A stretch of DNA of 64,000 bases, from positions 1 to 64,000 of the forward strand of contig NW_023501097.1 of the NCBI RefSeq assembly GCF_014066305.1, given 5' to 3'. The notes under the pieces were generated by a model. The model did not search any database. It saw only the letters and a program-made list of their open reading frames with translations, and was not told the DNA's origin. Every line of letters begins with the position of its first letter. Position 1 is the stretch's first letter. A program made the translations under genes and the position numbers. Source of the DNA: Letharia columbiana (Eukaryota > Ascomycota > Lecanoromycetes > Lecanorales > Parmeliaceae). This document shows positions 35,721 to 56,937 of the stretch, in pieces.

Positions 35721-38700
35721 ATGTTTGCACGAGCCTCAAAACGCACGTTGTATCGCGATGCGTACAGGCAATCCACTTCCAGCCTCGAGCTTCTACATCT
35801 CCCTTTCCTATGCCCCGCTTTATTTGGACAATTAAATGGCGCCCCCATTCATTCGAAAACCGTCCGGGCCGCCTCCTCAAAGCCCCACCTGGAACGGTCA
35901 AACGCGAGGAGTTGCAGACATCCGATACCCAGGACCCCTTCACACCGTAGAAGGCTCGCCTCAGCTGCCACCGCCGTCCAGTATGAACCTGAACATGACT
36001 CATATGTTCCTTGGGCTGAACCTTCGGTCGCCAATTTCAACTACCAGCCTAGGTTTGACGGAACCGGCATCTCTGCCCTTCGCCACTTTGATCCGAATAC
36101 CTCACTGCTCATCATCAAAGATACACTTACCACACACCCCAAGAGGTTTCGTGTTAAAGACGCCATAACCGGCGACCTCAATGAGCTCCATCAGAACCTA
36201 CATGCCTGCCTCCAAGTGGGCCGTCTCGAGCGAGCTGCGGCTCTCTTGCGAAGGCTCAACCAGATCTACAGTCCAGATGCTGCCGGACTACTTGCTGCAC
36301 ATTCCGACTATGTGAAGGAGCTCACAAACAAGGTCGTACAGACAAAGGATCAGCAGCTTCTCAAAGACCTACAGAGATGGTTCGAAGTGGATTTAAAGCG
36401 CGTTGGGGTCATCCCAAATGCAGAAATTTATGCTCAAATGATCAGAGCCAGTTGGCAGTCGTCGGGTGCAAGCAGAGAACGTGCGGTGAGAAGATACCAG
36501 AAATTGGCTGATGAAGCTGGATTTGGTGCCGAAACCAATGCTCTTTGGGAGTTTGATGTGGAAGACTACTCTCCAGTATGCAGATGCGCATTATTCTAAA
36601 CTTGGTTGCTAATCCCAGACCTAGGTTTCTGCTTCGCGCCTCCAGGAACATGCGGACGCACAAGTGACCGGCCTGACCAAGCTCGACCAGCAAGAACGTG
36701 GAGCAGGGGGAAGAGCCTTCGCTAAGCCTGCAGGTGAAATACAAGCTGTTAAGGCAACGGAACAAAAGGGCTCGGGTCTTTCAACGCTCAAGAAATCATT
36801 AGAGCTGTTCGGAGACAAAGGTGCAGACTTGTTCAGTGGCAGAGAGGTTACTGATGGTGAATTGTCTGCCGAGGAGCGCCAGAGGCTACTGGAAAACAAC
36901 ACGATCACGGCTGCCATGGATCGCTGGCGTGCAGAAGATAAACATCGGAAGGGCATAGGTATCAATAGCAGTCTGGCGTCATCTTCGATTGGTGCCATGA
37001 TGTGGAAATGGCACGAGGCTTTGGTCCCGTTGATCGAGGAGGATGTGAAAAAAACGAAAGAAGCCGAAGGAAGGGAAACGAAGAAGAAGGCCGATGAGGA
37101 TCTTCTACTCTGGGGTCCCTTCATGCAATTCCTGTCGCCAGAGAAGCTCTCGGCAGTCGCCATTTTGGCTACTCTGACGATTCTCAGTACGGAAAGTGTC
37201 GATGAACGAGGTATGAGAATCCACCATGTTGTTACAGGCATCGGGAGTGCTATTCAGGCCGAAAGCGTTGCTGAACATTATGGGCATAAGAAAAAGAGAA
37301 AGAAGTGGCGTGAGTCAAACCTGGCAGAGGGGATCAGGGAACTTGATAGCACAGGCCCGGGAATATCAGATGGAAAGCTACAGAATATCCTCCGGGGCCG
37401 GGCATCAAGCCTCTATGATAGTATGGAGTGGACACAAACAATAAAGGTCAAGGTCGGTGCAGTACTCCTCTCTCATCTAATGGACATCGCCAAGGTACAG
37501 GTGTCTCGCAAAGATCCCAAGACCGGTATAGAGCTGCGAGAGACGCAGCCAGTTTTCTTTCACACGTTTCAATACGTGGGTGGGAAGCGCGTGGGTGTCG
37601 TCCGGCTCAACACGGCCGTACTAGAAACGTTGGCGAAGGCTCCTGTGACCTCAGCAATAGCCAAATACCTACCAATGGTCGCCGAACCCAAATCATGGAT
37701 TGGATTCCGCGAAGGAGGTTTCTATGAGCATTCGATACCTGTAGTGCGCATCGGTTCACATGACGTGCAGTCGAAACGGTATGCTATCACTGCAGCGGAA
37801 AACGGAGACATGTCTCAGGTTTTTGCAGGCCTTGACGTACTGGCGAAAACACAGTGGAAAGTCAACTCTTTCGTTTTCAAGGTCATGCTTGATGCATGGA
37901 ATACTGGAGAGGCAATTGCTAAGATTCCTCCCGCAAACCAACCAACTGACAAACCTCGTGAGCCACCACCGTCAGCTGAGCCTAAGGTCCGACAAAAATG
38001 GATGAGGGCCGTACGGGATGCTGAGAACCAGAGGTCAGGGCTCAAGAGTCAAAGGTGTTTTCAAAATTTCCAGCTTGAAGTCGCTCGGGCGTACTTGAAC
38101 GAAACGTTCTATTTTCCACACAACTGTGACTTCCGTGGGCGTGCATATCCTATGGCTCCCTTTTTGAATCATATGGGGGCTGATAATGCGCGAGGCCTTC
38201 TGCTTTTCGCGAAGGGCAAAGAGCTCACCGACTCTGGGCTCTGGTGGCTCAAAATACATCTCGCCAACGTGCATGGATACGACAAGGCTAGCTTCGAGGA
38301 GAGACTGCGGTTCACCGAGAACCATTTGGCTGAAATATATGATTCTGTCAACAACCCTTTGGACGGCAACAGATGGTGGTTGAAAGCTGAGGATCCTTGG
38401 CAGTGCCTTGCGGCCTGCAATGAATTGAAAGCTGCTTTGGACTTGCCCGACCCCACCCGTTACGTCTGCCATCTTGCAATACACCAAGACGGTACTTGCA
38501 ATGGTCTTCAACATTATGCAGCGCTTGGAGGTGATGTCGTTGGTGCCCAGCAGGTGAACCTTGAGCCTGGTGATCGACCGTCCGACATATACACCACTGT
38601 GGCCGAAATGGTCAAAGCAGAGATTGCGGACGAGGCAGCGCAGGGCAACGGGTTGGCACGACAGTTGGATGGTAGAGTGACCAGAAAGGTCGTCAAACAA

Positions 38701-40096
38701 ACAGTCATGACCAATGTTTATGGCGTGACATTTACAGGCGCCAAGAGGCAGGTTCTAAAGCAGCTTGACGATTTGATGCTTGACCTTCCGGATACCTTCG
38801 GACTAAATCGGCTTGCGGCAGCATCGTACGTTGCGAGGAAGATCTTTAAATCACTCTCGACCATGTTTAAAGGAGCACACGACATACAATACTGGCTTTC
38901 GGACTGTGCTGCGAGGATATCCGATTCTATATCGGCGGAGCAAGTTGACTACACCGAGAGACAAGTTAAGGGTGAAAAGTTTCCAAATCAATTCAAGTTG
39001 AAAGCTCTGAGGGGGCAGAAAGACGAGCTCTGGTCGTTCAAGTCAAGCGTCATTTGGACGACGCCTCTGAAAATGCCTATTGTTCAACCTTATCGGAAGA
39101 CAACTACGCGCCGTATCGCCACCAACCTCCAGTCTATCACTATCCGGCATCGCACGGCAGCGGACCCTGTCCACAAAGTGAAACAGCTCCAGGCGTTCCC
39201 GCCAAATTTCATACATTCACTCGACGCCACACACATGTTTCTCACAGCGCTGAAATGCCACGAGGTCGGTCTTACCTTCGCTTCAATCCATGACTCGTTT
39301 TGGACACATGCCGGAGACGTAAACATAATGAACAGAGTCATTCGCGATGCTTTCATCAGGATGCACTCCGAAGACATCATTGGTCGACTTGCGGCTGAAT
39401 TTAACGCAAGGTACAAGGGCTACATGCATCTTGCAAGCGTCTTCTCTAAGAGCCCCGTCGGTCGCAAGATCTTGAGGTGGCGTAGGAGCGTTGATTCAGA
39501 AGCCAAGAAGAGAGGTGTTGCAGCAAGAAAAAGAGACGAACTGATCCTCGAACGCCGCCGTTTGGTTTTGCTCACATCTAAGGACCCCAGGGAGCGCGAA
39601 GAAGGAGAGGCGATGATCACACCAGCGAAATTGTTTGCCGAAGCAGCAGATGAAAAAGCTTTGGCGCCATCAGACATCCAACCAGCTACCATTGGCGAGA
39701 TGGGACCAGCTTCCTTGAGATCTACCAAATTGAAGGCCAACCAACGCCTGGAGGTTGGTGACATCGCGAATATCGAGACAGTGCTTAGTGACGATGAGAC
39801 TGAGGGTCCCGAATTCCACGATACAGCAAATTCCCGAGCCGATGCGGCCGACACGGAGGCAATCGAAGAGACAACGCCCAAGGCAGAGGAGATCGAGCCC
39901 AAAAAGAACAAAGCTGCCAGTAGAGACAGGAAGATCTGGTGCTGGTTGCCGTTGACATTTGCCCCTGTCCCAAAGAAGGTATGTGTAACTATCACCGCCT
40001 GGGTTGTGCCACATGGTTTCAAGGCATTGCTAACCAGTGAGATAGGGTGATTTCGATGTCTCGAGGTTGAAGGAGAGTCAGTATTTCTTTTCTTGA
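35721..40096 (+). CDS. RPO41: Mitochondrial DNA-directed RNA polymerase (T7-like)
   Basis: Three exons, 35721-36575, 36625-39978 and 40046-40096, giving 1419 aa, close to other fungal Rpo41. Transcribes the mitochondrial genome. The N-terminus is Arg/Ser-rich (MFARASKRTLYRDAYRQSTS), a mitochondrial targeting signal. A PPR-like N-terminal domain covers ~residues 170-290. The polymerase domain shows DFRGRAYPM, motif A with its catalytic Asp (AIHQDGTCNGLQHYAALGGD), motif B (RKVVKQTVMTNVYGVTFTGA) and motif C with the second Asp (ASIHDSFWTHAGD). The 17-codon last exon gives KGDFDVSRLKESQYFFS, the conserved family C-terminus. A ~120-residue charged insert precedes it. Confidence 0.96.
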
Positions 40097-40435
40097 GGCT
40101 TATACCTACACTCTGGTGGTATTGGTGCCATATGTTAGTTCGATTTGTGTTGATACTCTTGGACGTCGATATACCACTTTGTACGAGAATATCGCATAGC
40201 GTTGGCGCTGGCTACTGAACAATGTATAGAATAGAGTCGATCGTTTTAGCTTATTGGGGAAGGTCACTGTATGACACCAATGTAAAACAAATATTACTCT
40301 CATAATTTGTTAATAATGATTCGAGTCTGGGATTTCTCATGAGATCGTAATGTTTTTCATTTGTTAATAGATACATCGGAAATAGCTGATCTTCACGCCA
40401 CCATCAACGGCTCTACCTCTGATCATCTACAGATA
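40097..40435. other. Intergenic, convergent 3' ends
   Basis: About 340 bp. Nothing recognised. Confidence 0.5.
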
Positions 40436-41559
40436 CTACAGCTTCGATTGACTTGGGTCATCGATCTTGATCGTCAGCTTGCCAAAGTGCTTCTGATCCC
40501 ACATGTATTGGTACGCCTCCTTGGTCTCTTCCAGACCAAAGACCTTTTCGTCCACAACAGGCTTGATTCCATTCGCATCAATAGCCTCGTTCATCTGCTC
40601 GAATTGTTGCCTCGATCCCACCAAGACGCCCCGCACAGTGCAGATGTTGTTCAGGCAATCGAGGAAACTTGGCTGGTCCTTGCTAAAACCGCCCAGGAAC
40701 CCAATGATCGAAATGGTACCTTCAGGTCGGATAGCTTTCAATGACTGCGCCATTGTCTTTGGACCGCCCACTTCAATGACGTGCGCGCAGCCAATACCAC
40801 CGGGCGTCAATTTCTTGGCTGTTTCGCCCCAGTTTTCATCGGTCTTGTAATTGATGACGTTGTCTGCGCCGAGCTTCTTCAGAACCTCGGCTTTGGCGTC
40901 GGAGGAGGTGGTTGAGATGACGCGGGCGCCGGCTGCTTTGGCAAATTGCAGGGTGAACATGCTCACACCACCGGTCCCCTGCGTCAAGACTGTATCTCCT
41001 GGCTTCAGACTTTTACCCTCAATGCCGTATAGTCCGTTCCACGCGGTCAATGCCGCGCACGGCAGTGTGCTACCTTGCTGGAAGTTCAAGGTCGAAGGCA
41101 TGAGGACCAAGCCTGACTCTTCAAAGACGCCATATTGACGAAGAACGCCGTGGAGAGCACCGCCGAGACCAGTAAGTGTATCAGAGGATGTAATGGGACC
41201 GGCAAGGTGGGATTGATTGAAGAGTGTTAGGACTCCGTCGCCCTTATGGAAGCGTGAGACGCGTGAGCCGGTGGCGACGACGGTGCCTGCGCCGTCTGAG
41301 GCGGGGACGATGGGTAAGGCGGTGGGGAAGGGGTATTTGCCCTGGAGAAATCAATGAGCAAGGTTTTGTGAAGGGAGGAAGAGAAGTGGTATGGCACCAT
41401 GGGAATAATGAGATCTCGGTAGTTCAAAGAAGCGTAGTGGAAGTTGATGAGGACGTCGTGGTCACCGAGGGTTGGGATCTCAGCTTTGTCGTGGAACTTG
41501 AGGCTGTCGAAGCCACTTTTGCCCTCGACAGTCCATTGCTTGGTAGTTGATGGTGCCAT
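40436..41559 (-). CDS. Medium-chain dehydrogenase/reductase, quinone-reductase/ADH-like
   Basis: Two exons, 41559-41398 and 41341-40436, giving 355 aa. MDR superfamily: the N-terminal GroES-like part has DVLINFHYASLNYRDLI and LPIVPASDGAGTVVATGSRV. The Rossmann part has the nucleotide-binding loop in TVLTQGTGGVSMFTLQFAKA and the following AGARVISTTSSDAKAEVLKK. The structural and catalytic zinc Cys residues of classical alcohol dehydrogenases are absent, so a zinc-independent NAD(P)H oxidoreductase acting on alkenal, enone or quinone substrates is likely. It borders the putative biosynthetic locus; membership is undecided. Confidence 0.88.
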
Positions 41560-41893
41560 TGGTGGAGTTGGTCTGTACGGTTTTCCAAAGAGATGCAAAG
41601 ATCAGGTTCAATTGAACAAGTGAACATAGACTACATTTATGAGACTGGTTCTTTGGTGAGTAAGGATGCTTCAATATATGTATGTATGTGTGTGTGGACA
41701 TTTGTTCGTGAAGATAGATCTATCTTCCGATGACGATTTGTAATTCATTCGGAAAACATTCTGACGAAATCGTCATTTGATGGGGAGAAGCCGGAGATAA
41801 AGTACTCGTACCATTGCAATTGCCGATGGATGAGTCATGACCATGCCAGTCTCACTGACCTTTCCTGCCGCCGTTTAGCTGCGAAGTCAGCAG

Positions 41894-42038: not shown

Positions 42039-43275
42039 TCAGTACCTATAGCAAACAAGTCCTGACTCGGTATTCATTATGTCTTCAACACGCACATCTG
42101 GCGCCAGATAACCCAAGGGCAGTGGATCCCTCAGGCTTGCCTCCGAGCTGGACGTATAGGCAGCTTTGCCGGAATAGTCTTTCAATCTGGCCTGTGTATC
42201 ACCCTGCTGCCATTTCCACCATAGTCGATCAAGCTGCGTGTGATGGAGGAAGAAGACTGGATCTATGTTTGAGTTAGTTCAAACGCTGTGCAAACCACGG
42301 AATGCGACGAACCAGCAGGTGCCGTGACGGTAGAGAAATCGCCATGGATGCTCCGTGGAATTGACAAATGTGGGCCATCCTCCACTCCAAGATTGAAAGT
42401 CGCATAATCCGACGTACGCAGTAGCTCATTCAGAGCCGTAGGCTCCAGTGCCGCACTGAATCGAGTAAGATTTCCCCCTGTGGCAAAGCCGCGAGATAGG
42501 CAGTGTGGATACGGAAATTTCTCGACGTAGAGCACCTGGAGCCTGGCAAATGGACCGTCCGTTACGCAATGCCCGTGAATGGACTCAATGTCCTTTTCGT
42601 TGCCGTCGCCGCCGAATCCGAGGGTGGTGTCCCAGACAGGAGCGTGGGTGACATCTTCCCAGTCGAGAGACCAATCCCAGTATCTGGAAGAACGATTAGC
42701 TCTTCGGGTCTGCAGCTCAGGCTCTTGTACGTACGTGAGATGCCCTGCATAGGCGCATTGCTCCCTGAGTGCCTTCTCGTACACATGAATGAAATACCTA
42801 TGCCAGGGAAGAAAAGCCGCAGTATCGTGTGCTTTAGACATTAGTAACACCAGCATTGCTGGGGCGTTCGTTACTCACAAGCCTCGCCATTCCGACTATG
42901 CACATACGGGAAATCATCATACAGGGTCTGATTGAGACCTAGTTTCGAAGGCGAGCTTCTTAGACATTGGACTGCTTCTATATAGTCATTCTTCTCTGCG
43001 TCACTCAAATCTCGCCACTCTCGACGTATGATGGGATTTGTACAGGCCGTGGATGGCAAAGAGTTGGAATCGATCTCTTGTTTGAAGAGGATGCCGCCAC
43101 CAAAGCCCAGGACAGTGCACAAAACCGCTACGCAAAGCGCCAGTGACAAACGTAGAACCCTTGATCTATGCGCGTCGTTGACCGAAGACTGTGGATTCTT
43201 ATCAGCTTTGTCGTCAGCAAACTCCAAGTCTACGACAGGAGCATAGGCCGCTGTCGATTGGCTGTACTGCATCAT
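42039..43275 (-). CDS. Membrane-anchored tyrosinase (UstQ-like copper oxidase)
   Basis: Three exons, 43275-42879, 42831-42313 and 42262-42039, giving 379 aa. Residues ~50-75 are one transmembrane helix (LSLALCVAVLCTVLGFGGG), so a type II membrane protein with a lumenal catalytic domain is expected. CuA histidines lie in FPYVHSRNGEASHDTAAFLP followed by WHRYFIHVYEKALREQCAY. RYWDWSLDW matches the family PYWDW block. CuB histidines lie in GPHLSIPRSIHGDF and ADPVFFLHHTQLDRLWWKWQ. The C-terminal shielding domain of classical tyrosinases is missing. The same architecture occurs in UstQ-type tyrosinases of ustiloxin/phomopsin clusters. Phenol oxidation of a peptide or small metabolite is the likely role. 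An alternative start is the second ATG at 43272. Confidence 0.88.
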
Positions 43276-43901
43276 GAGTGTGGGTGAAGACTTCGATGGC
43301 CTACAAACGGCAGAAGACACAATCGAGGTTCGGCAGTCAAGAAGGCCTCTTCCATTCAATGATCATTGCCGAAAACGTGGAAAAATGAGCTTTTGGTCGG
43401 ACAAACAATGACTTTGAACAAGAGGTGAAGCTTGTGGCCATCTTATAGAAGGCTAATTAAGGCCCTCTGAGTCGCATTCGGGGGGTTGAATTACCTAGGT
43501 GCTGTCTAGGCACGACGCCATTTGATACCAAGCAGCACAGCGTTAGTGTTGCGCAACGATACTCTGTATTGTATTATTCCTTCCTGATCCCAACCAATCA
43601 GTCAAGGCTTCGGATCCGCAATTACTGCGCAGTGACGTCTCGGAATCTTGTCGCGCGTCGAATATCAGGGAGAAGGATCTACGACGGAAAAAGCCTTCCT
43701 GTATTCGCATGGTGAAATAATACAACCCTTCATGTGGTACAGGTATGCAAAGGAATATTAAGTAGTGTCGCTCTTTTAGTGCATAATTCCATGGCTCATG
43801 AATCATACTAGTCACAAATCTAGGGTAGTTGAACTCTTCTCTACGCCTATGGCTCCATCAACAGAGCCCAGACTCCCAAAGAAGGCCACTTCGGGGACCT
43901 C
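43276..43901. other. Intergenic
   Basis: About 630 bp between two minus-strand genes: the tyrosinase promoter side and the 3' side of the rhodopsin-domain gene. No gene seen. Confidence 0.5.
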
Positions 43902-45424
43902 TCATATGATTTCCGAGGTCTGCTTGAGTTCCGTCTCCCTCCAAATCCGTCCAGGGCCTCTCTCTAATGTCTCGTACTTCTCTCCACCGCTCACCCTTCC
44001 CATGGCATAGGCTTCCACGTCAATGCTGACCAGAGTGTTGTGGCCCGATTTTCCCGTGTATGGAACGCCTGTGATGGCCGTTTCCGACTCTGTTCTCTTT
44101 GCGCTCCCCTTGGCGTTATGGGACGCCTTGTTGCCACTCCCGCTGGATCTCAAAGAGATCTGTGAGCGGAAACTCCTGATGATGCTCTCTGGTGACCAGC
44201 CTTGGAACAGTGGTCGAAGCACGGGAAGGCAGGCAGCTATCATGGCGATGCCGACTTCGAGCATGCCCCAGAACATGAGGATGCTGACGATTCCTGAGCG
44301 AGTTAGCAGACTTCCGGCTGCCTTGGAAGAGATGAAGCATACCAATGTCGTCGTCGGAAGGCACTCCGCCTACTTCAGCATGAGAAAATACTAGGGCACA
44401 AATAGGTTAGTCCCTATGTGTGACAGAGATCGCTCAACTTACACGCTGGGCCGAGGATTACGCCAAAGAGCGCCATGCGAGTAATACCACAAGCAATAGC
44501 CCTGCATCTGTGTTAACCAGCGAGCGCCAAATTTCCAAGAAATATACACTGACAGTGTGCCCACCAGCAAAATAACCAGGACGGCTACCTTTCGCCGCAT
44601 TGGCATCTGAAGCGCAAGTACCTGGCTACATTAACACCCAAGATGTCGCTGACAGAACCATTTAGCGGACTTACCAATGGTACGGGCATGATCAAAATTG
44701 CCAGGTCCACAGCGACATCAGAGACGGCGAGCGCTATCAGGATATCAAATGTGTCCACGCAATCTCTCTTGAGAGCGCCCAGTGTCTGGAAGTTGGCAGC
44801 AATTGAAGTGCCGCAAGCCGCGAGTATTGCAATGATGAACGTCATAGCCCATGCCCCTACCACACCAATAAGGACCCAGCTTGCGATATCGAAAGCCCGG
44901 CCCCTAAAGATACGCCGATAGAAGAATAAGATGGAGAGCTTGATGGTTGCCAGCGCAAGGATCTGCATCAAGTCGAAAGGAAACTCCAACTGCAACGGAC
45001 CATGAGTACCATCGTGTGATGACGATACCTAATCAACATACCTTCTCCAGCAGGATCTGATCAGATCCATCGTAGAAAGCTATTTCCGGCCCCAGATTCG
45101 GTGGTGAATGATAGCCCACGGTGTGCGTCACGGACCCTGCAAGTAAGGCTTTAGCAACAATACCCGGTATTCTAGAGAGTGATACTACCTATGATCATGA
45201 TAGTGCCCTCGGCGATGACGAGTGCCTCCGACATCATTAGCCTTTGGATGACCGTTTCGCAGGATCGATTAAGAACTCACCAATGCCGGTAGACATAGCC
45301 AGTCGTCAATACCCAACCCCGACTTTTGTCTTCTGATATTGAAGCGAGCTATCACCGCTGCGATAGCGAGAAGAATAAAAAGAATAGCAACGGCGAGAAC
45401 GCTACCTCCGTTAACGTAAGTCAT
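43902..45424 (-). CDS. Fungal rhodopsin-domain (Pth11/SAT4-like) seven-helix membrane protein
   Basis: Eight short exons: 45424-45281, 45225-45189, 45136-45042, 44989-44675, 44606-44548, 44501-44443, 44390-44343, 44293-43902, giving 382 aa. All junctions keep frame. Family features: the first helix in VLAVAILFILLAIAAVIARF, then SGLGIDDWLCLPAL, LEKLEFPFDLMQILALATIK, LSILFFYRRIF, the DCVDTFDILIALAVSDVAVD helix, QMPMRRKVAVLVILLVGTL-like residues and VSILMFWGMLEVGIAMIAAC. The C-terminal ~110 residues are a hydrophilic cytoplasmic tail. There is no CFEM domain, so this is the CFEM-less class, often found near secreted-product clusters. Ligand and signalling partner unknown. Exons 2 and 5 have alternative acceptors. 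Confidence 0.82.
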
Positions 45425-46906
45425 GATTTCTGCACGAACACAATCATTAAGACAGCAAAGAAGGCTGCCAGAAAATGGTATGTGAGTCACATAAGAGTCA
45501 TCTTAGGGAGAGTCAAGGAAGTTGGTTCATGCGAGCAAGCTTGAACTCTAATGTCAGCGCCCCACACGGTCAAGAAGGCGAATTTCTGCCCCGGGTGAGG
45601 ATATTGCGGGGGGGCGTTCATCACAACAGGCCCATTGGCTCGCTGAAGTGCCGGGAAAAGAAATGGTGTCTATCAATGGGAGTGCAAGCAGCGCAACGGG
45701 TCCACGGCAGCGGTCCGGAGGGTCAAATTGCTGTTCCGGTACCTCTGGAGGTTTTTCCCTGTGGTTATGCTCCTGGGCGACATTGATTGGTGCTCATTGC
45801 CTTCCTGCACGGGAGGTTCTTTAACTTCTTTTCACCGCGGGTTGCATTAGTATAAAAGCCACCTTGGTTCTGCATCAGCCTTTGGTGTCATCCATGCGCG
45901 TTATACCTCTGTACACCATGCATAAGTGCGCCGAGTCAACAAAGACCCCTGAGCGTGCCAGGTCTGACAGGGTTAATACCAGTACCGACTACCAAAGCAA
46001 GAAAATGATACTCTGGTGAACTGTAGGTAGACCGTACTCTACCTGAGATACGTACGAGTACTACACGGGCTGGATAGAAACCGCCAGCTGTTCAGCAGCC
46101 AATGTTTCCCCGCAGTATGGGAAGAGCACATATCCAATGGATATGAATTCATATTTTCCCCTGTAGGTATGCAGGTATGAAAAGTCATATGCGGCTTTAG
46201 CCAAAAAGGGAGTGCCCGAAGTGGACCGATCATCCGACGGATGCAGCTCAAGCGAAGCGACACAGGGTTCATCTCAACTTTTCTCATCTCATTTCATTTC
46301 ATTTTGCAACAACAACAACAACAGCAGTCCGAGCTCACCTGCAGTAAAGTAGGTAGGCATACCCGCTTGCTGCACACCCTACAGCCGCAATCCTTCAGCA
46401 TCATATGATGAGCACAGCTTGCGCTTCTGCTATGCATATTCCAACAAGGATGCTCGTCTCCTGCCAATTCGCTTCACACGCGCTATCATCTATGATCAAG
46501 GCCCCGTCAACGCTTTTTCTCTTCACCTTCCGGATGCGTAAAGCGAACGTTTGGCGACATTGCCATCATGACTCGTAGTCACGAGCCTCCGTCGGAACTT
46601 GAATGAGACTAACGGTGCTCGGTTCGGGGGGTACACGCAACGCATTTCGTATCCGAGGCACATACCTAGCATACCACCACTCTTCTCACCTTTCATTTTC
46701 TCGCCTACCCACACTGTGTGAACCAATCATTTTCCAGGACTCACCCTTTCAATTCCAGTTCTAGGCCCAGATGGACAAGGTTCAAGCTCAGCAGCATCAC
46801 CTTAAGTCATTCCATCTTCTTCTGAGACAAAGCTGTCATCTATTGTCTACCTGCTCAACTTATCCTGGAAAACCCAAATTTATTGAGCTATCGAGGACTG
46901 AAGAAC
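45425..46906. other. Intergenic, divergent regulatory region of the biosynthetic locus
   Basis: About 1.5 kb between the rhodopsin-domain gene and the first UstYa gene. TATAAAAG at 45851-45858 precedes a 41-codon frame starting ATG 45894, without signal peptide; I do not call it a gene. CAA triplets occur near 46301-46325. Confidence 0.45.
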
Positions 46907-47812
46907 ATGGATTCCAAGTACTTGCGTTTATCCCAGGATGCATCAGATCTGCTTTATTCAGGAAACGAAAAGGAGGGAAATGGCCGCCGACCTCGGTTCT
47001 CGTGGCGAAATCTGATATTGTCGCTCTCGGTGGTGGTCAATATCTTTCTATCAGTTTCAGTCGTTTTGATGCTGAGAGAAAAGCCCACGCCAACAGGCTT
47101 CGGTGAGAATAAACGGTCAATCCGCGTGAGAGTGGTGACTGACAGGTCTCAGCCAAGGTCGACTCTCTCACGACCACATGGGACCAATTCTGGTGGAACA
47201 CGGCTTACAGTCCCAAGAACCACTCCGATAGCGACGAGCTGTGGGAAGCTATCCTCCCGTCCCATGGTTTCGTGGCAATGGACCGAAAATGGGCGGAGCA
47301 GAGACAATGGCCGGCATCGATGTACCTACCGGGCGATCACAGTAAGGGTGTCTATCTGTTGGAAGCCTATCATCAACTGCACTGTCTGGTCAGTCTTGAT
47401 CCACCCTGTGGTGCCATCCTGACGCTGCTAAAAGATGTCTAGCGGATCCTACGCAACACGTTTTGGGAAGCCGTTGACCATCGACCATTTACCTATCACC
47501 CGTCGAGCCACATGGAGCACTGTTTTGACACGTTACGCCAGGTGAGGAGCAAATTCGTATGGCTGCTGATGAGGACGCCCGCTAATACGCTTCATGCAGT
47601 CTGTGATGTGCAATGCAGACAACACTCCGCTCTACACTTTTGGGGACAAGACGGCTGGGGATGGCCAGCTCCACCGCTGCCGAGATTGGAATGAGCTTCG
47701 CGATTTTGCGACCGAGAATACTGCCTGCTATCGGGATTCTGTGGGGGATATTCCTCTTGGAGAACATTTCGGATATTGCGATGAGGGGGTTGATGGTCTG
47801 ACCGCAGCTTGA
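46907..47812 (+). CDS. UstYa-like oxidase/cyclase (DUF3328), copy 1
   Basis: Four exons, 46907-47102, 47153-47388, 47443-47541, 47600-47812, giving 247 aa. One transmembrane helix near the N-terminus (ILSLSVVVNIFLSVSVVLML), then the lumenal DUF3328 domain. Both conserved HXXHC motifs are present: HQLHC in LLEAYHQLHCL and HMEHC in SSHMEHCFDTLRQSVMCNAD. TTTWDQFWWNTAYSPKN is the usual WxxL-like region. UstYa/UstYb-type proteins are needed for the oxidative macrocyclisation of fungal RiPPs, and related proteins act as oxygenases or halogenases in other pathways. The first acceptor (GGTCTCAG at 47152) is chosen because the earlier AG breaks the frame. Confidence 0.87.
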
Positions 47813-49544
47813 TAGTTTCGAGCTACAAGCATCCTGCGGGGAAATTTCCCTTTACGAATATCTTTTATGTCGTGCAAGGATGGGAAGTGAAGGTCTTAAT
47901 CCCACCATATTTGAAGCCAGTCCAAAATGTTCTAGTCAAACCCATCTGAAGTTCTTTGCATATTCTTCACGTCAGTAGCACGTTTAGGTAGAGTTGATCA
48001 ACGATCAGCCTGATTTTCGGGTCTCTACAAAGACTCTGTACTACAAGCATAATACGAGCGTCTAGCAACCTACCTACCATAGTCCAACAAGTGGATCATG
48101 GAATGTTGGATGAGCTCAATTGAATCCCCAACGACTCTTCCCAACATGAAGGCCAATTGCGCTTTTTTGTCATTGATTTCAGCGGGGAGAGCATTGACTC
48201 TCTTGAAATAGTTTAGCTCCAAGTACTCCGTACCGCCGTTGTCGTCAGTGAAGTCAAAATGTGCTCTGACATGATATTTGCAACGGTGCTTTCAAGAGCT
48301 GCAGGGCGTTTTACATTACTAGGTATCTACTTTCGATACTTTGTACTGACTCGTATCATCAGTTCTGTAATTTAAATGTCTGGGCACGGTCCGGCCTGCC
48401 GCCCGTAATGTAAAATAAACAATTAGATACCTTATACCTACCTTAAAAATCCGAGGCTCGGACATCGCGCTTGGTCACTTTTCGATTTCCAGTTTGTGCT
48501 TGCTATTCAACATCAATCCTTGTGTACCGCTCCAACCTCCACTGATGGCCCTGACCACAATACTCCTCCAAGCATCTCGACATTATTGATGAGATGAAAT
48601 TTGAGGATTCATAGTATCATTCACCTGCATTCAAGCGCAGCAATCATTTCCACTCATAACGGCGATGCTGCTACTGCAGCCCTTGCTTTACGAGCCTATC
48701 CCATGAGCCAAAAATGAAGAACGGACGGAATATAGGAAGAAATCGCCCGATTCGTGTTGCTGGGAAGATCTGCGTAACGAACTTTCAGCAATGATCATGC
48801 ACTTCTCGTTAGCCATCTGTCTCATTCCTGCTTTTCCTACGATGACTGCCCGAGCAAAGCGCTGGCAAATACGCTAGGATGCCCAATTCCTCTTAGATCA
48901 TACGCTCGTGCATCATCTTGTCCAAACAGTTCGCAGAACCGGGCGAGAAGGGTACGCGTGCATGGAAAACATCCATCGAAAGACGTTGATCTGCCCATGG
49001 CGCCATGCTTTTACTTTTTCCATCCCGGGTTTCTCTACCACAAAGCGAATGGCTTGGACCCAAGCTGCAAAGCGATCGAGCATTTGCCATCCGGACATGC
49101 ACGGTCGTGGAATTGATTGGACCCAGCGATCGAAGCGTTCGAAGGCATCGAGCGATCTATGCAGTGCAGAGATGAAATCCGGGAACGACTGGTGGTGAAT
49201 ATAACCGTTTCCTGCACGAGATCTGGGTGGACCGGGGTCTGAAAAGTGCGGAGAGAGCAGTACGAGTGGAGGAGAAAATTCGCCGTGTCTGCTCGGTGAC
49301 AGGAGATTGGCGTCAAAGGTGAGCTCGGGACTTGGCGTCGGTTCGAGCAACGGTGACTCTTTGACAGAGCTGCCCGTCCCGTCGTCCGTGGTGGTACGCT
49401 TGACAGCTCACCATTCTCGTCTACGTATGTAGTTATCCCCAAACCAACACGCACAGACGCAGGCTTGTCATCCTTCCCGTCTGTGCCAACTCATCGCTCG
49501 ACGTCCTAGTTGTCTCGGCCTACTCGTGCTCGGAAAACGTGTCC
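47813..49544. other. Intergenic, no supported gene
   Basis: About 1.7 kb. A minus-strand open frame (48913 to about 49400) has somewhat coding-like, Trp-rich composition but no ATG in its first half and no resolvable upstream exon; it might be a decayed gene. Short inverted repeats occur near 48310 and 48408. No RNA gene seen. Confidence 0.4.
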
Positions 49545-49552
49545 TATATAAG
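49545..49552 (+). promoter_or_regulatory. TATA box of the small secreted peptide gene
   Basis: TATATAAG lies about 180 bp upstream of the ATG at 49730 and is followed by a CT-rich and CATC-rich leader of the type seen in highly expressed fungal genes. Confidence 0.6.
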
Positions 49553-49729
49553 ACACCTGCATGCACCTTCCTGTCTCCCATCCATCTCGTCCATCTCAAG
49601 TCATCTATCCCCGCCATCGACATATCTCATCCACATCAAACACCGTCCACACCTCCCTCACACTCTCTCCCCCAATCCCATCCAAGCAACCCGCAAAAGC
49701 CAGAACCTCTCCGAATCCCCTCAGCAACA

Positions 49730-49948
49730 ATGCACGCCCAGAACATCTTCGCCTTCCTCGCCCTCGCCGTCGTGGCCATGAGCGCCGCTCTCCCTGCAGC
49801 AGCCGTGCCTGCACCGGACGCTGGTTCGTATCTGTGGCTCCGCTCAGGATCTCGATGGATCGGGCTAACGTTGTCTGCAGAGATTGTGCGGAAGAGCGAG
49901 GCTTCGGCTGACGACGTGGACATCACGCAGATTGGAGACGGGTACTAG
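49730..49948 (+). CDS. Small secreted peptide, candidate RiPP precursor
   Basis: Exons 49730-49823 and 49881-49948, 53 aa. Residues 1-19 or so are a strong signal peptide (MHAQNIFAFLALAVVAMSA), followed by an Ala/Pro-rich spacer (ALPAAAVPAPDA). The C-terminal ~22 residues are polar and acidic, contain RK at 35-36 and end in TQIGDGY. There is no cysteine. The 57-nt intron has GT/AG ends, is stop-free and a multiple of three, so retention would simply insert 19 residues. It sits between two UstYa genes with a tyrosinase nearby, the context of dikaritin precursors. Against: single copy, no Lys-Arg Kex2 sites. It could equally be a small secreted peptide unrelated to RiPPs. Confidence 0.6.
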   Translation: MHAQNIFAFLALAVVAMSAALPAAAVPAPDAGSYLWLRSGSRWIGLTLSAEIVRKSEASADDVDITQIGDGY

Positions 49949-50236
49949 GAGGGTCAGGGGGCTGGAGGGATGGAGGGATGGGGGCCTTGATGGGTGGACG
50001 GGAGGCTGGCTGGCATCACTAATTTGTGTTGGGCGGATGGCACGTCGGGCGGTTCTGTACTCGAGCATCACACTTCGTTGCATCTACAATCTCGGGCGTT
50101 AGAACTAGACTGGGATTCTTTCAGGGAGCTCGCAAAATACATGACGTTCGCTGCTCCATTCGACACATCTTTGCTCCTCTATCCCTCCGTCTGACTTGCA
50201 TTCGCCTATCTATTTCGACACGATGAGATTCCAAAG

Positions 50237-51643
50237 TTATCCGGCCCAAACCGCCTCGATGATAGACAGCGTAGCCCCTTCCGGAACCCAAATCACCACA
50301 TCCTTGAACCGAGGATCCGCCTCCTTGAAAACCTGCTCCCAATCCGCACGGTCGCGCTCCCGGGCGTTGAAGAGACTCAGCATGATCATATCCATACCGC
50401 TGTAAAGAAGGCCATCAGCCTCTGACATCACCGGGGGTGGGGTGGGGGGGCGGGGTCTAAAAGGGAGGGAAAAGAACGGGGGGTGCACCGCTCACCGAAT
50501 CTCCCGCTCCTTGGACGGGGCCATGGTCTTGGGCTCGGGGATGAGGTAATCGTTCGCGACGACGCGGGCGCCGGGCGCGAGGGCGGGGACGGTGGCGCGC
50601 AGGATGCGGACGACGTGGGCGTCGGACCAGTTGTGGAAGATGTTGCGGAAGAGGTAGACGGCGGCGGCGGGGACGGGCTGCGGGGCGAAGAAGTCGTGGG
50701 CCATGAAGGCGACGCGGGGGGCGAGGGCGGCGGGGACGGCGTCGCGCGCGCCGCGGATCATGTCGGGGAGGTCCTGGACGACGAGGCGGAGGTGGGGGTG
50801 GGACTGGGCGAGGGCGAGGGCGACGTGGCCGCGGGAGCCGCCGACGTCGACGACGGTGGCGGTGCCGAGGGAGGCCCAGGGGTAGCCCTCGGTCAGGAAG
50901 CGGGGGGAGAGGCCGACGCCGTCGGAGAAGGCGGACATGGAGCCGGCGAAGCGTCGGGCCATGGCCGGGTGCTCGGCGTAGTGCTCCCAGACCGGCCGGT
51001 CGGTGCGCTGGGACAGGCTCCAGCCGGTGTGGGTGGGTTCGTCGCTTTGGAACCGCTCGCGCGCCTCGACGGTGCGCGCGAACGACTGCCAGACCTCGTC
51101 GAACATGTACCCGAGCCCGGCCCTGGCGTCGGCGTCCTCGGCCAGCTTGCGCGACGCGGCCGAGTGCGCGACGTGGCCCTCGCGGGGCTCGTGGAAGACG
51201 CGGTGGTAGGCGATGGCGAAGCGGACGATGCGTCGGAGGTTCGTTTCCGACATGCCGCATTTCCTGCCCAGGTCTGCAAAGGAGATTTGCCCGTGGATGG
51301 GGACGTGGGAGGCGATGTCGTATTTGTAGATTGCCTGCAGGCTTACACCGTTCAACTGCGGTCGGGAGCGTGTCAGCGGAAGCCTTACGGCTTGTCGTGT
51401 CTGGATACTTACCACGGGACGAAGGCACATGGCGGGCCCGAGGAGAAGCTGGTGGAGCTCGAGACTGGAGTCCAGGGCTGTCTCGCGGGCTTTTTGGATT
51501 TCCTCATCTTCAATCTGGAAATCGACGGGGCCGTCTACATGGAACGATGGCGACGGTAGGTTTTTACTCTGGAGGTATTGGTCCACTTTCGTGGTGTTTT
51601 CCTGGATTTGGGCAGCTAGGTCGGCAATTCTTGTGGAAGCCAT
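50237..51643 (-). CDS. SAM-dependent O-methyltransferase (plant-COMT/AflO-like family)
   Basis: Three exons, 51643-51413, 51355-50496, 50399-50237, giving 417 aa. Class I methyltransferase with an N-terminal winged-helix dimerisation part (YDIASHVPIHGQISFADLGR, MSETNLRRIVRFAIAYHRVF). The SAM site is VVDVGGSRGHVALALA, with the acidic motif LVVQDLPDMI. The catalytic histidine lies in YLFRNIFHNWSDAHVVRIL. The last exon supplies MDMIMLSLFNARERDRADW. Fungal members methylate phenolic or other hydroxyls of secondary metabolites, for example a tyrosine-derived phenol. The middle exon is strikingly GC-rich compared with its neighbours. The first intron is 57 nt and stop-free. The gene is tail-to-tail with the peptide gene. 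Confidence 0.9.
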
Positions 51644-52385
51644 TGGGGAATTCTGCTCCTACTGCAGGGAGCGGAAGAGGGAATCGCAAGAGAGAAGACT
51701 AGTAGCCGCAGAGCATACTGTGTGAATGATTGATGTTTACGAATGTCAAACAAAGCCCGGTTCAAGCTAAGAGTGAGAAGGCAATGCGAAGAGAAGGATA
51801 TGCATGACAGACTAATTGCACACACAAACAGGAAGGGAGGTTCGATATTTGTGTATCCACCTCACAAGATTGAGAAAGACATTAACGGACATTGAAGAAG
51901 ATGGGATTAAGACAAGGAACATTCATGGCAGCATTGGTATGTATGGTATGGAAAGAAAAGCTCGGTCACTTGTGTTTTGTTTTAGGCCTCGGACCTCTTG
52001 TACCTCTTGTGCTTTCCCGCAGAACTCCGAAAGCGCGGAAAAGGAGTCGTGGATTCATGTTGTACTGATGTTGTGGTGCATGAGCTAAATCTTGGTCGCA
52101 TATTCAATTAACGCCGTCATGCACGTCAAAATTATAGGGTAATACCGGACCCTTCCTTCCTTCGTCCAATCAAAAGACTAAGCGACCTACCTACCTGCTG
52201 TAATTTGATAAGGTATTTTTAATCGGTGTATGTAACGCTAAGGAGAAAAATGCAGGATTTGGTATCATCATCTTCCCTGTCATCTGTCAGCTGTAATACT
52301 TCTCCTCTGTATGATCATCCTTCGTAAGAAGTCACGTTTCTCGTGCAGGCCTGTTAGTTCACCGTGAACCAGGTCCATCTCTGCA
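51644..52385. other. Divergent promoter region
   Basis: About 740 bp between the O-methyltransferase and the second UstYa gene. CCTAC repeats near 52187. No gene seen. Confidence 0.45.
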
Positions 52386-53291
52386 ATGTTAAAATTGCTA
52401 CGAACTAGCCATTCACCGTCATACTTCCCCCTCCCCCAATACGGTCACATTGACGACGACAATGATCCCGGGAAAGAGACAGTACAGTCTCTTCGCGGCC
52501 AGGGAAAGCGTGCTCTTTGGTCCCCTTGGTTACAGCTTGCCATGATGGTCGTCTCTTTCTTGCTCGCGGGCACTGCTGGCTTCTTCATTGGCCTTTCACT
52601 TCCTCAAAAACGACTGGCTTCCTCGTCGCTTCCAGATACGGTGCCGCAGGGTACATTGTCTTCCCGAATATCACGTACCCGACCTGCTGACCGGCTGTCT
52701 TCCAGTATTCATCGGCTTGTCCATGGAGACTTTCCAATACAACGAAAGCTTTGCGACCCCACCGCCCCAAGAAGGAGGCCAAGAGCCAGTCTGGGACTCT
52801 TTGATCCCCAGTAAGGCCGTATACCTCTTCAAGTTGGTCTCAATGGCATGGCTGACACTGCCACAGATGGCCTGGGCTACGTGAAGCATCCAACTCTGGC
52901 CCCGAACCTGTCCGTCATCAGCGTCTTCCATCAGCTTCACTGCTTGGTAAGTTGACATTAAAGACCCAACGACTCCGCCATCTGGTTACTCACCAGCTGA
53001 CAGTACACACTCCGCCGAGCATACTATGCAATTTCTGAGGATCAACATGAGCTAGAAGACTTCGACTTTGGGATCGAAAGGGCTCCGCATGCGGCTCACT
53101 GCTTTGAGTATTTGAGACAGGCTCTCATGTGTTCTGCCGACTCGAGCATCGAGCCGGCAGGGAAAAGAGTTGAAGGCTTCCTAGGGTGGGGCTTTCAAAG
53201 ACAGTGCCGGGATTATGGGGGGTTGATGGCTTGGGCGGAGAAGTGGAGAGCCTTCAATGGCCAGGGCTTTATAGCAGAGCCACCCGGCTGA
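52386..53291 (+). CDS. UstYa-like oxidase/cyclase (DUF3328), copy 2
   Basis: Four exons, 52386-52650, 52706-52810, 52867-52946, 53004-53291, giving 245 aa. N-terminal cytosolic ~50 residues, one membrane helix (LQLAMMVVSFLLAGTAGFFI), then DUF3328: FQYNESFATPPPQEGGQEPV, DSLIPNGLGYVKHP, HQLHC in ISVFHQLHCL and HAAHC in APHAAHCFEYLRQALMCSAD. RQCRDYGGLMAWAEKW is the usual C-terminal block. Both HXXHC motifs are intact. It is clearly diverged from copy 1, as expected for a UstYa/UstYb pair rather than a recent duplication. Likely lumenal, ER or Golgi. Confidence 0.88.
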
Positions 53292-54760
53292 TGTGTGCAG
53301 ACTCGCATTTTCTCGCATAGATTTCGAAGATGTGCCGCCGTACCCAGGCTTGCGGCTCTGATCCTGAGCGGCCCAGGCAAGAAAGCTCAGGCGGAAATGG
53401 GTTCGATTGAAAGAGAATGTATTAAATTAAAAGAAAACAATGTCGACCCCCAGTCATGCCGGTCTAGAAATCGATAAGCTTTTCTTCCCAATAGCTCTGC
53501 TTCTCCTGTGTTTAATTTTCTCTATACCGCCCGCTGAGCGATCAAGTGTTCCATCCTCGGTAGGATATTGGCTCCGACGCATCGAAGATATGCTCTTTTA
53601 TGTAGATCTGTATGTCTGTTGAGGCTGGCATGACAGATGTTGACGACATCCCTAGCACGACATCTGCACGTCTGTGGCACTTAGATTCCTCGTACTTTGG
53701 CCCGAACCATGGGAACACGGCCTTACGGCTGCATGTAACTGGCACTCTAGGGCGGCAGAGCTCTGTGTAGGCGTTTTCCTCATGAGAGCTTCACTACTTC
53801 TTTTTCAGCTTTGCTCGTCGACTCGACTTAGCTAGTCTGGGGGTGCAACAATAAGGAACGTACTTTTCTCCAGACCGGGCCAGAATAACAGAGTATGGGT
53901 CTTGATTGTGCCGGAAATCCCTAGGCTCACTCTATTCTAGGTTAGCATAGCCCTGCTTCGTTGCAGGACTACTATAGACACACAATCTCAAGTCCCCGGA
54001 CCTTAGGCCGAGAGCGTATAGATGACGGACGGAAGTTTTGACGGAAGAAGTCTTTGCAGCTCATGGTTCGCTCTCGAAAAGTTCCCATATAATGTGATAG
54101 AAGGCGAGGTGGTGGTGTAGAGAGAGACAAAAGGGATATGATGACGAAAACACCCGTGAGAAAGCCCGCAAATGTGGAGCCTCAGGAGAAGCTCAAAAGC
54201 AAACAGCGGAATGAAGAAAGGCGTAATTACGGCAAGATCAAATCATGCAGATCGATGGTCAATTTCAGAAGACGAAGAGAAAGGAAGTATATATGAAGCT
54301 CGGCATTGGAGGGGCAACGGCCAAAATGAAGATGAGCGCAGTGGAGAATCGTGGGTTGGATGCCTTGGAATGTTGTAGGTGTGTGCCATGGTGTTTCGTA
54401 CAACTCGTCGAGTAGGTGACGTCCAAACCCGACTGACTATTACAAACTTGAGTAATTGCTGGGGCTTCGCTCCAAAAACTTTGAGCTTTGCATTCTCATC
54501 TGCATTCTCGCCTGCATTCTCGCCTGCATTCTCCTTCAATGGCCGCAGCCCAAAATGCCTCTGCCTCTTTTCTCGTAGGGCTGCTAGCTTCAACGGCCAT
54601 AATGACGATTTTGCATAGCAGCTCCAAATCTCAGCTTGACTTTCAAACAATAGCACCGGTCAACGAGCAGGCCATATCATATCAATATTCCAATTGAGGA
54701 AACTTACTTCACTGCAAGGCCTAGGGTATGACTTTTTGCGCGTAGGCTGGCTGATCCAGA
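53292..54760. other. Intergenic
   Basis: About 1.5 kb upstream of the aldehyde dehydrogenase. A 60-codon frame with one hydrophobic segment starts at ATG 53440, too weak to call. A 12-nt unit (GCATTCTCGCCT-like) is repeated about four times at 54489-54533. Confidence 0.45.
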
Positions 54761-56463
54761 ATGTCTACTGAAGTCATAACGACAATATCACCGTCCACCA
54801 ACAAGCCAGTCTTGACGCGAAACGGCCTGTCGGACTCAGACGTGGCGCTCCTGCCTGCCTTGTCTACCAAGGCCTTCAATGCCTTTCGTCTCACATCACT
54901 CGAAGAACGCCAGGCCATTGTCAAGAGAGCGCTGAAGCTCATCAGCGATAATCAAGATGTGCTTGCGAGGGAGCTCACAGAGCAAATGGGAAGACCGATA
55001 GCTTATGCTGCGAAGGAAATCACTACGGCAGTCGCGAGGGGCGAGTATCTGCTGAAGATCAGTAGTGATGCCTTAAGAGACACTCAAGGCGAGCCGGAGA
55101 AGGGTTTCAAGAGGTATATCAGGAAAGCAGCAATTGGACCGGTCTTGATTCTGTTCGCTTGGAACGTGGGTAGCTACAGCCCAAATCATGACAGTCGAAC
55201 TTTGCTTACGAAGGCTCTCTAGTATCCATACCTCATCTTGGTCAATTCTTTGATACCCGCTCTACTCGCTGGCAATTCGGTCATAATCAAGCCTTCACCA
55301 CAGACCCCTACGATCGCGGAGCAGGTGCAAGAAATATTTGTCGAAGCTGGGCTGCCGGATAATGTGATCCAGTATTTTCATTGCGGCTCTTTGGCACGTT
55401 TAGAGAGCATAGTGCGCTCACCTCAAATGAAGCTAATATGCTTCACGGGATCCGTAGCTGGAGGCCTACAAGTTCAGCGCGCCGCATCAGACCGTGTAGT
55501 TCCTGTTGGGCTTGAGCTCGGAGGCAAGGATCCTGCTTACGTGAGGGAAGATGTCGATGTGAAATGGGCGGCAGAAGAGATTGTGGATGGTGCAGTCTTC
55601 AACTCTGGACAAAGTTGCTGCAGTATTGAGAGAGTCTATGTTGCTGAAAATATTCACGACGCTTTCATATCTGCAGTGCAAGATGTGCTGAAGGGCTATA
55701 AGCTTGGCGATCCTTTCGACCTAAGCACTAATGTTGGACCGGTAGTGTCGAAGAAATCAGCAGAGACCATCAAAGCTCACGTCGAGGACGCAATAGACAG
55801 TATGTTATACTTTGAGGCACTCGTTCCCCATTGATGCTACGTTATAAGTCGTCAGACATGTCTAAACAGTCGTCTGCTCCTAAGACATGTCTTGGGACTC
55901 AGAATTCCTTGCGAAAGAGTAATGCTGACTCCAAAACCATCAAGAGGGAGCAAAGGACTCGACTCCGGAGAACGAAAGCTTCGTGTCGCCACCGGCAGGC
56001 GGCAATTATGTTAGACCAACACTCTTGACAAACGTGACCCACGACATGGTACGGCGGCCTGTTTCCATCTCCATGTATTTGCTAACTTGATCCAGGATGT
56101 AATGAACGACGAGACATTCGGACCGATAATACCGGTAATGAGAGTGGGTAATGACGAGGAAGCCGTCCGATTGATGAACGATAGCGAATTTGGCCTCACG
56201 GCCAGTATTTGGACGAAGGACACTGCGAAAGGCGAAGAACTTGCCGAGCATGTGGAAGCAGGAACAGTGTTCGTCAACAGATGCGATTTTCCCAGCCCAG
56301 TAAGTCGATTCGGCATACAGCAAGTTGTATGTATGCTGACCGAAGCAAGGATCTTGCGTGGACAGGGTGGAAGAGCTCCGGCAAAGGAGTCACGCTGAGC
56401 AAATTTGGTTTCGAGCAATTTGTCAAGTTGAAGAGCTTCCACGTCAAGCAGTATCCGAGCTAG
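54761..56463 (+). CDS. Aldehyde dehydrogenase (NAD(P)-dependent ALDH superfamily)
   Basis: Five exons, 54761-55165, 55223-55799, 55945-56048, 56096-56299, 56350-56463, giving 467 aa, normal ALDH length. Catalytic Cys lies in VFNSGQSCCSIERVYV and the general-base Glu in VPVGLELGGKDPAYV. Cofactor-binding PALLAGNSVIIKPSPQTP and the FTGS loop (LICFTGSVAGGLQVQ) are present, as are NDETFGPIIPVMRV and GWKSSGKGVTLSKFGFEQFV at the end. There is no targeting signal, so it is probably cytosolic. The substrate is not determinable. Adjacent and same strand as UstYa copy 2, so it may belong to the locus, but a primary-metabolism role is equally possible. Confidence 0.9.
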
Positions 56464-56720
56464 TATCATTGTGGTCTCATCGCTTCATTGCTGAGTGATA
56501 CGAGGGGCTGAACCCAAATGGGTTTCTCATCATACAACGTGCTGGGCCGACATATGAACTAGGGCTGTCCTGAGGAGCCCTTCGCTGATTCCACTAATCA
56601 GGGGCGAGAATGTAGACGAGAATGCAAGGGGTTGGAGCCATCTCTAGGGTTTTGGAGTGTTCAGCCCACGACGAGACCCTGGGGCTCAAGCAATAGGTGA
56701 TGGTACCTCTCTCTATTGAC
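56463..56720. repeat. Second, weaker group of hairpins, downstream of the ALDH gene
   Basis: Perfect stems: 56463-468/56496-501, 56511-516/56519-524, 56562-566/56576-580 (with additional inner pairs), 56585-590/56596-601. A later AGCCC/GGGCT pair lies near 56665-56690. Less dense than the array at 30004. The rest of the gap to 56937 shows no gene. Confidence 0.45.
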
Positions 56721-56937
56721 GGTTCCCCATCGAGTCTATCTTCTCGAACTTAGGGAAATCCTCCCCTGGCATTGTCTAAGATGTTGTAGATGTATGTATA
56801 TGCAAATATGTACAAATCGGTATATAGATATCCAACGGTACCTTCAGGTATCTTGATCCAAAAAATCTGAACACATGCAACACAGGCTCGCTCCTCCAGC
56901 GCCCAACAATGCTTTTATCCAAATGCATTCACTCAGC

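Follow-up and report, generated by a model that had tools for sequence, protein, structure and literature searches.

The window analyzed here, a 64,000-bp stretch of Letharia columbiana (Parmeliaceae) spanning positions 1–64000 of contig C62 in a searched genome of 52.2 Mb and 161 contigs, harbors a locus encoding a UstQ-type tyrosinase, two UstYa-family proteins (UstYA and UstYB), an O-methyltransferase and a small secreted peptide of 53 amino acids (aa) (Table 1). The locus probably represents a compact ribosomal-peptide pathway, in which the 53-aa peptide would be a single-core, non-repeat dikaritin-like precursor whose C-terminal tyrosine becomes oxidized and cross-linked, perhaps also O-methylated. 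The enzyme set is already known, being of the same order as that of the Clan R1 clusters of lichens (Pasinato and Singh, 2025, PMC12048977); the evidence for a candidate precursor is the new part, and the peptide is a good candidate for the precursor of this gene cluster.

A Conserved Peptide Gene and Candidate Single-Core Precursor

The spliced model of the peptide gene was identical to the L. columbiana hypothetical protein HO173_010834 (P0001) and showed no Pfam family match. Its layout consists of a signal-like region (residues ∼1–20), a variable linker, VRK at residues 34–36, a 7-residue spacer and the block VDITQIGDGY (44–53). Among 5.8 billion proteins searched, 12 rows matched, namely, Letharia, Usnea florida, and ten further records. 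In P0012, which continues into the intron, only exon 1 is represented, while the other 11 rows, Letharia included, are complete. VRK and the final IGDGY were invariant in all 11, and VDITQIGDGY was identical in nine, the remaining two being VDIAQIGDGY (P0005) and VDITDIGDGY (P0010). As P0002 and P0008 share their exons and P0004 equals the Letharia sequence bar one exon residue, the rows represent no more than 10 distinct sequences, which are not all independent. Averaged over the pairs of these 11 rows, identity was highest in the C-terminal block (0.96) and the signal (0.93), followed by IVRKS (0.87), the linker (0.70) and the spacer (0.61).

The frame also stays open through the intron, and the resulting unspliced 72-aa reading was rejected on two grounds. 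The intron-encoded columns showed a pairwise identity of only 0.31 (seven unspliced rows), and P0002, located on a 922-base contig, equals P0008 minus 18 residues at the intron site. The two are thus the spliced and unspliced forms of one gene, and the 922-base contig is likely, on this indirect evidence, to be a transcript. The secreted peptide proposed in the initial annotation is upheld by its identity to an annotated protein and its conservation in 11 further records (U. florida and ten others), owing to which the gene is considered real. The open reading frame (ORF) alone would be at chance level, since the 64 kb contains 17 distinct small ORFs that begin with a signal-like sequence (crude rule, unspliced ORFs of 40–120 aa).

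The invariant C-terminal Tyr is the sole Tyr, Phe, or Trp past the signal peptide. A scan of 40–56 kb for the tandem repeats of a classical precursor revealed only short low-complexity arrays, and the peptide contains no KR or RR site; a single RK is present and was invariant in the 11 complete rows. No second copy of the peptide was found in the Letharia genome at E up to 10. The C-terminal block could alternatively be a recognition sequence, with modification taking place at other residues of the peptide or in another precursor encoded off the cluster, as leaders and recognition sequences of ribosomally synthesized and post-translationally modified peptides (RiPPs) are usually conserved and their cores variable (PMC6514808), and an off-cluster precursor has been raised for Clan R1 (PMC12048977). 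This is improbable, as the rest of the mature peptide is devoid of Tyr, Phe, and Trp and is more variable, whereas Tyr is the residue modified by UstYa/UstQ systems (PMC6514808).

Tyrosinase and UstYa Proteins of the Locus

All five genes named in the initial annotation were present, and its proposed profile check for DUF3328 and tyrosinase gave PF00264, PF11807 (twice) and, in addition, PF00891. Its description of two diverged UstYa proteins with two intact HXXHC motifs each also held, UstYA and UstYB being 23% identical. UstYB was 74% identical to U. florida P0017. By hydropathy, a single strongly hydrophobic segment was located close to the N-terminus in each of UstYA, UstYB, and the tyrosinase, that of the tyrosinase at residues 45–63, in agreement with the membrane anchor ascribed to it. 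AlphaFold models of UstYB and UstYA relatives, built from 20- and 17-row alignments, had a mean predicted local distance difference test score of 54 and were not used. No solved structure had a sequence match to UstYB up to E 1; the UstYA profile gave one match (E 0.074), which was taken as chance.

The spliced tyrosinase model was identical to L. columbiana HO173_010831 (P0133). Among the aligned tyrosinases, H134, H143, and H270 were kept in all 15 sequences, H126 in all but one of the 15, and H296 in 14 of 14. The second copper site (CuB) of tyrosinases is usually HxxxH, the second His being expected four residues past the first. A Pro was found four residues past H270 in all 15 aligned UstQ-type sequences. 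A PHC motif was also observed in these proteins, its His being kept in 14 of 15.

Across the Letharia genome, 35 UstYa exon matches were merged into at least 21 genes at 16 loci, and Pfam matches indicated at least two tyrosinase genes. The regions within 10 kb of a UstYa locus add up to only 0.67% of the genome; the presence of a tyrosinase beside two UstYa genes therefore exceeds chance. No second tyrosinase–UstYa locus was found in the genome, the other tyrosinase match being on contig C38, for which no UstYa match was listed. Four more loci with two UstYa genes were observed on contigs C17 (two places), C47, and C65, with no tyrosinase match on those contigs; these are possibly other UstYa pathways.

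Linkage of the Peptide Gene and Its Putative Enzymes in Other Genomes

The 12 peptide rows were compared with the best 120 of 140 UstYa rows and the best 120 of 319 tyrosinase/O-methyltransferase rows by the length of the longest contig of each protein cluster, equal length being presumed to denote the same contig. For three of the 12 peptide rows, an equal length was found in the set of 240 listed enzyme rows, as against 0.08 per shift expected from shifted lengths. One of the three is Letharia itself (300,446 bp). Another is the 232,889-bp scaffold of U. florida, which carries the peptide BDR22DRAFT_894086, UstYB (894084) and the tyrosinase (883005). The third, a 48,977-bp contig of the European Nucleotide Archive, combines peptide P0007 and tyrosinase P0142, matched by equal length alone. 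Conserved synteny, suggested as a check by the initial annotation, was thus borne out to the extent that the peptide and a UstYa gene share a scaffold in another genus.

In Imshaugia aleurites (Parmeliaceae), the genes for UstYA (IMSHALPRED_001472) and for the O-methyltransferase (001473) share a contig of 452,774 bp and are numbered consecutively. The Letharia peptide occupies exactly this gap between UstYA and the O-methyltransferase, and hence the peptide gene may be present but unannotated in I. aleurites. Among the listed rows, UstYa proteins occurred with a tyrosinase or O-methyltransferase on equal-length contigs in Paecilomyces variotii No. 5, Aspergillus sclerotioniger, and I. aleurites, as well as in Viridothelium virens (Trypetheliaceae) and Agyrium rufum (Pertusariaceae). 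Full-length intron-free relatives of UstYA, UstYB, the tyrosinase, and the O-methyltransferase were found on lgn contigs of 1.8–4.2 kb (P0014–P0016, P0134, P0135), which suggests that these contigs are transcripts.

That the genes are chance neighbors forming no pathway is very unlikely. Small signal-bearing ORFs and UstYa genes are both numerous, as noted above, but genes arranged in this order occur in several Parmeliaceae (PMC12048977) and the association of UstYa with tyrosinase or O-methyltransferase recurs in the five other species named; this conserved linkage strongly disfavors coincidence.

Tyrosinase and O-methyltransferase relatives were also present in two Thermoascus species among the matches listed. 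Those of Thermoascus (Eurotiales; P0148/P0166) were 72% (tyrosinase, 286 aa) and 66% (O-methyltransferase, 417 aa) identical to the lichen proteins, a likeness that might reflect either gene transfer or old inheritance. The peptide search, which needs shared 5-residue words, returned no relatives from Paecilomyces, Viridothelium, Agyrium, Aspergillus, or Thermoascus. On a 127,132-bp contig of Alectoria sarmentosa (P0183, P0043), a joined UstYa–tyrosinase protein, either a fusion or a gene-model error, lies beside another UstYa.

Proposed Maturation of the Peptide

Judging from its sequence, the 53-aa protein would enter the secretory route via its signal peptide, and a Kex2-like protease would cut after VRK to release a 17-mer ending in VDITQIGDGY. 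In the lumen of the endoplasmic reticulum or Golgi, the tyrosinase and the two UstYa oxidases, all membrane-anchored, would oxidize the ring of the C-terminal Tyr53. An oxidative cross-link from Tyr53 to an upstream residue, by analogy with ustiloxin, phomopsin, and asperipin, would most plausibly involve the invariant Ile49, since Tyr53 is the sole Tyr, Phe, or Trp past the signal and the Ile lies four residues before it. The O-methyltransferase might then methylate the phenol or catechol or another oxygen, which is the weakest step. Each precursor would yield a single macrocyclic peptide ending in Tyr, which would hardly vary among the carrier fungi. Precedent exists in that UstQ, UstYa, and UstYb are required for, and heterologously yield, the first ustiloxin intermediate carrying the ring (PMC6514808), and in the Tyr–Ile closure of ustiloxin and phomopsin (PMC6514808, PMC7329392).

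The computed [M+H]+ of the Letharia 17-mer SEASADDVDITQIGDGY is 1755.756 in linear form and 1753.740 with one cross-link. The corresponding values are 1080.521 and 1078.505 for VDITQIGDGY and 652.294 and 650.278 for QIGDGY, methylation adding 14.016 and hydroxylation 15.995 to each core. The Usnea spacer and C-terminal block differ from those of the Letharia 17-mer.

Several observations weigh against this scheme. The peptide has neither repeats nor KR/RR, and RK, its single dibasic site, is cut poorly by Kex2. Leader and presumed core are conserved to nearly the same degree, in contrast to most RiPPs. The locus O-methyltransferase retains VVDVGGSRG and FHNWSD, which we take to be functional motifs; the solved sequences nearest to P0134, its 97%-identical relative, were 7bqj and HpiI (7bqo), and because the O-methyltransferase-fold group of these structures presumably includes pericyclases, the chemistry assigned to it is tentative. 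It showed no signal or membrane anchor by hydropathy, so that any compartment or substrate proposed for it is likewise tentative. Outside Letharia, peptide–UstYa linkage was observed in one genome, that of U. florida. Nine of the 12 peptide rows matched no listed enzyme row, seven being on contigs below 7 kb and two on contigs of 11,428 and 22,414 bp; since only the longest contigs and the best 120 rows were compared, these nine count neither as absence nor as support. Ile precedes Tyr in the Letharia peptide, whereas the ustiloxin and phomopsin cores read Tyr-x-Ile (PMC7329392). UstYa proteins are also found in non-peptide pathways, serving polyketide and nonribosomal products (PMC12048977).

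An alternative is that the peptide is a conserved, unmodified secreted signaling or effector peptide that happens to lie within the cluster, and that the UstYa proteins, the tyrosinase, and the O-methyltransferase have a different substrate, which may or may not be ribosomal. The conservation of the signal part and not of the core alone, the lack of repeat or KR architecture and the known employment of UstYa proteins elsewhere (PMC12048977) would suit it. Nevertheless, it appears unlikely: the linkage persists in Usnea and probably also on one more contig, the peptide gene sits between UstYA and the O-methyltransferase, no polyketide synthase (PKS), nonribosomal peptide synthetase (NRPS), or terpene synthase was found among the ORFs scanned, and the invariant residue is Tyr, the target in known UstYa/UstQ systems (PMC6514808). 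A single-core precursor modified at Tyr53 remains the preferred explanation. The dikaritin-type interpretation of the initial annotation is supported by the peptide–UstYa linkage in U. florida and weakened by the absence of the repeat and KR features of classical precursors.

Relation to Clan R1 and Known Dikaritin Systems

Clan R1, one of the two conserved lichen clusters in the survey of Pasinato and Singh (2025, PMC12048977), was found in Parmeliaceae with antiSMASH and contains two UstY genes, a tyrosinase upstream and an O-methyltransferase between the UstY genes. The Letharia locus matches in gene order, which was the basis of the comparison; Letharia belongs to the same family, though it is not named in the main text of that paper. 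Genes with a signal peptide and Kex2 site were noted in some Clan R1 clusters, none with conserved repeats; the precursor was not found and was suggested to be off-cluster or single-core (PMC12048977). The Letharia locus differs in having a conserved candidate between UstYA and the O-methyltransferase, which fits the single-core case raised there. The expectation that repeat-based RiPP miners would miss the locus is accordingly not sustained, as a locus with this gene order had already been detected and the precursor alone was missed. Similarly, the additional O-methyltransferase of the initial annotation is present (PF00891) but had already been remarked on for Clan R1 (PMC12048977). No RiPP had been characterized from Lecanoromycetes as of the 2025 survey (PMC12048977).

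As told in PMC12048977, dikaritins were defined in 2015 by an N-terminal leader with repeated core motifs and in 2021 by UstYa/DUF3328 as the class-defining enzyme. The Letharia locus possesses UstYa/DUF3328 proteins with two HxxHC motifs and a tyrosinase, and the peptide has a signal-like start; repeated core motifs are absent, and the Pfam matches of the locus include no transporter or peptidase. The methyltransferase is of the O-type (PF00891), whereas ustiloxin and phomopsin have the N-type. With the ustiloxin B system (UstA, UstQ, UstYa, UstYb), the locus shares a tyrosinase, two UstYa oxidases, in the form of the candidate peptide a secreted precursor, and a methyltransferase; it differs in the methyltransferase family, in Ile preceding Tyr and in lacking repeats and KR sites, and no cytochrome P450, flavin monooxygenase, peptidase, or transporter was seen in it. 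The asperipin cluster and one ustiloxin cluster are likewise without a peptidase (PMC12048977). Asperipin-2a has a UstYa-type oxidase and a core, FYYTGY (PMC6514808), that also ends in Gly-Tyr, but is encoded by four genes (precursor, one UstY, transporter, and reductase), whereas Letharia has two UstYa proteins, a tyrosinase, an O-methyltransferase, and no repeats. The Kex2-processed repeat proteins (KEPs) share the signal peptide and dibasic site, RK being counted as a Kex2 site in the survey of these proteins; however, at least three tandem repeats were required (PMC7329392), and a KEP-type survey therefore could not list the repeat-free Letharia peptide. No published description of this peptide was recognized among the papers listed by the literature searches.

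Gene Inventory and Neighboring Genes

The Pfam scan took in 44 ORFs and five spliced models, covering 42 of the 61 window ORFs of at least 150 aa. None of these was an NRPS, PKS, or terpene synthase, in agreement with the initial annotation, nor a P450, major facilitator superfamily or ATP-binding cassette transporter. The Pfam matches of the locus (42–54 kb) included no transporter or peptidase; taken with the repeat scan, this bears out the reported lack of peptidase, P450, transporter, and repeat precursor. A Fung_rhodopsin-domain gene, absent from the initial annotation, sits between the tyrosinase and UstYA, and two ORFs at 48.9–49.5 kb had no Pfam family match. The spliced models place the peptide gene between UstYA and the O-methyltransferase. 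By their Pfam families, the flanks (36625..41601 and 54755..61365) look like primary metabolism.

Table 1. Positions of the locus genes, their borders and other features in the 64,000-bp window.
Feature	Position	Strand	Basis
Tyrosinase (HO173_010831), membrane-anchored UstQ-type, 362 aa, 3 introns	42039..43275	-	PF00264 5e-36
Fung_rhodopsin-domain membrane protein, limits approximate, unspliced model	43902..45424	-	PF20684 2.2e-20, one exon; other exon below cut-off
UstYA (UstYa-family protein A), 247 aa, 3 introns, HQLHC + HMEHC	46907..47812	+	PF11807 2.5e-25
Possible TATA box, TATATAA, 179 bp ahead of the peptide start codon	49545..49551	+	Read from sequence
Secreted peptide (HO173_010834), 53 aa, candidate single-core precursor	49730..49948	+	Spliced model, relatives' conservation
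Peptide-gene intron, 57 nt, frame open also if unspliced	49824..49880	+	Spliced model
O-methyltransferase, 417 aa, 2 introns	50237..51643	-	PF00891 3.7e-25
UstYB (UstYa-family protein B), 245 aa, 3 introns, HQLHC + HAAHC	52386..53291	+	PF11807 1.8e-22
Left border: mitochondrial-type RNA polymerase	36625-40047	+	Pfam
Left border: zinc-type dehydrogenase	about 40439-41601	-	Pfam on 40439-41350
Right border: aldehyde dehydrogenase	from 54755	+	Pfam
Right border: sulfite-reductase-type protein	56941-61365	-	Pfam
Mitochondrial carrier, outside locus	10213-11163		Pfam
Beta-lactamase-family serine hydrolase, outside locus	13261-14691		Pfam

Methyltransf_33, DinB_2 (below cut-off), and FGE-sulfatase domains occur consecutively at 20925–23099 (+), the FGE-sulfatase at 22383–23099. 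The Methyltransf_33 domain passed the NCBIfam EasF cut-off, and the EgtD, EgtB, and OvoA models matched below theirs. This domain order is presumably that of Egt1, and we interpret the region as a single ergothioneine gene of the Egt1 type. In Letharia this gene appears to be a bystander, since DcpS and RNA polymerase genes separate it from the tyrosinase. FGE-sulfatase and S-adenosylmethionine (SAM)-dependent methyltransferases have been counted as Clan R1 accessory genes (PMC12048977), whereas in Letharia they correspond to this one Egt1-like gene ∼19 kb from the tyrosinase; the Clan R1 "FGE-sulfatase" and "SAM-methyltransferase" genes may be such a housekeeping neighbor.

Implications

No paper on a single-core, non-repeat precursor for a UstYa/tyrosinase pathway was found among those listed by the literature searches. 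We consider it an evenly balanced proposition that the peptide is the missing Clan R1 precursor, i.e., a near-invariant lichen peptide in which a Tyr bridge closes the C-terminal Ile-Gly-Asp-Gly-Tyr into an O-methylated macrocycle. With a named 53-aa gene and computed core masses, the Clan R1 precursor question becomes testable by liquid chromatography–mass spectrometry on ordinary thalli. If the proposal is true, UstYa systems can use repeat-free single-core precursors that are invisible to repeat-based searches, and the fixed sequence would point to a function shared by these lichens and not to a species-specific toxin.

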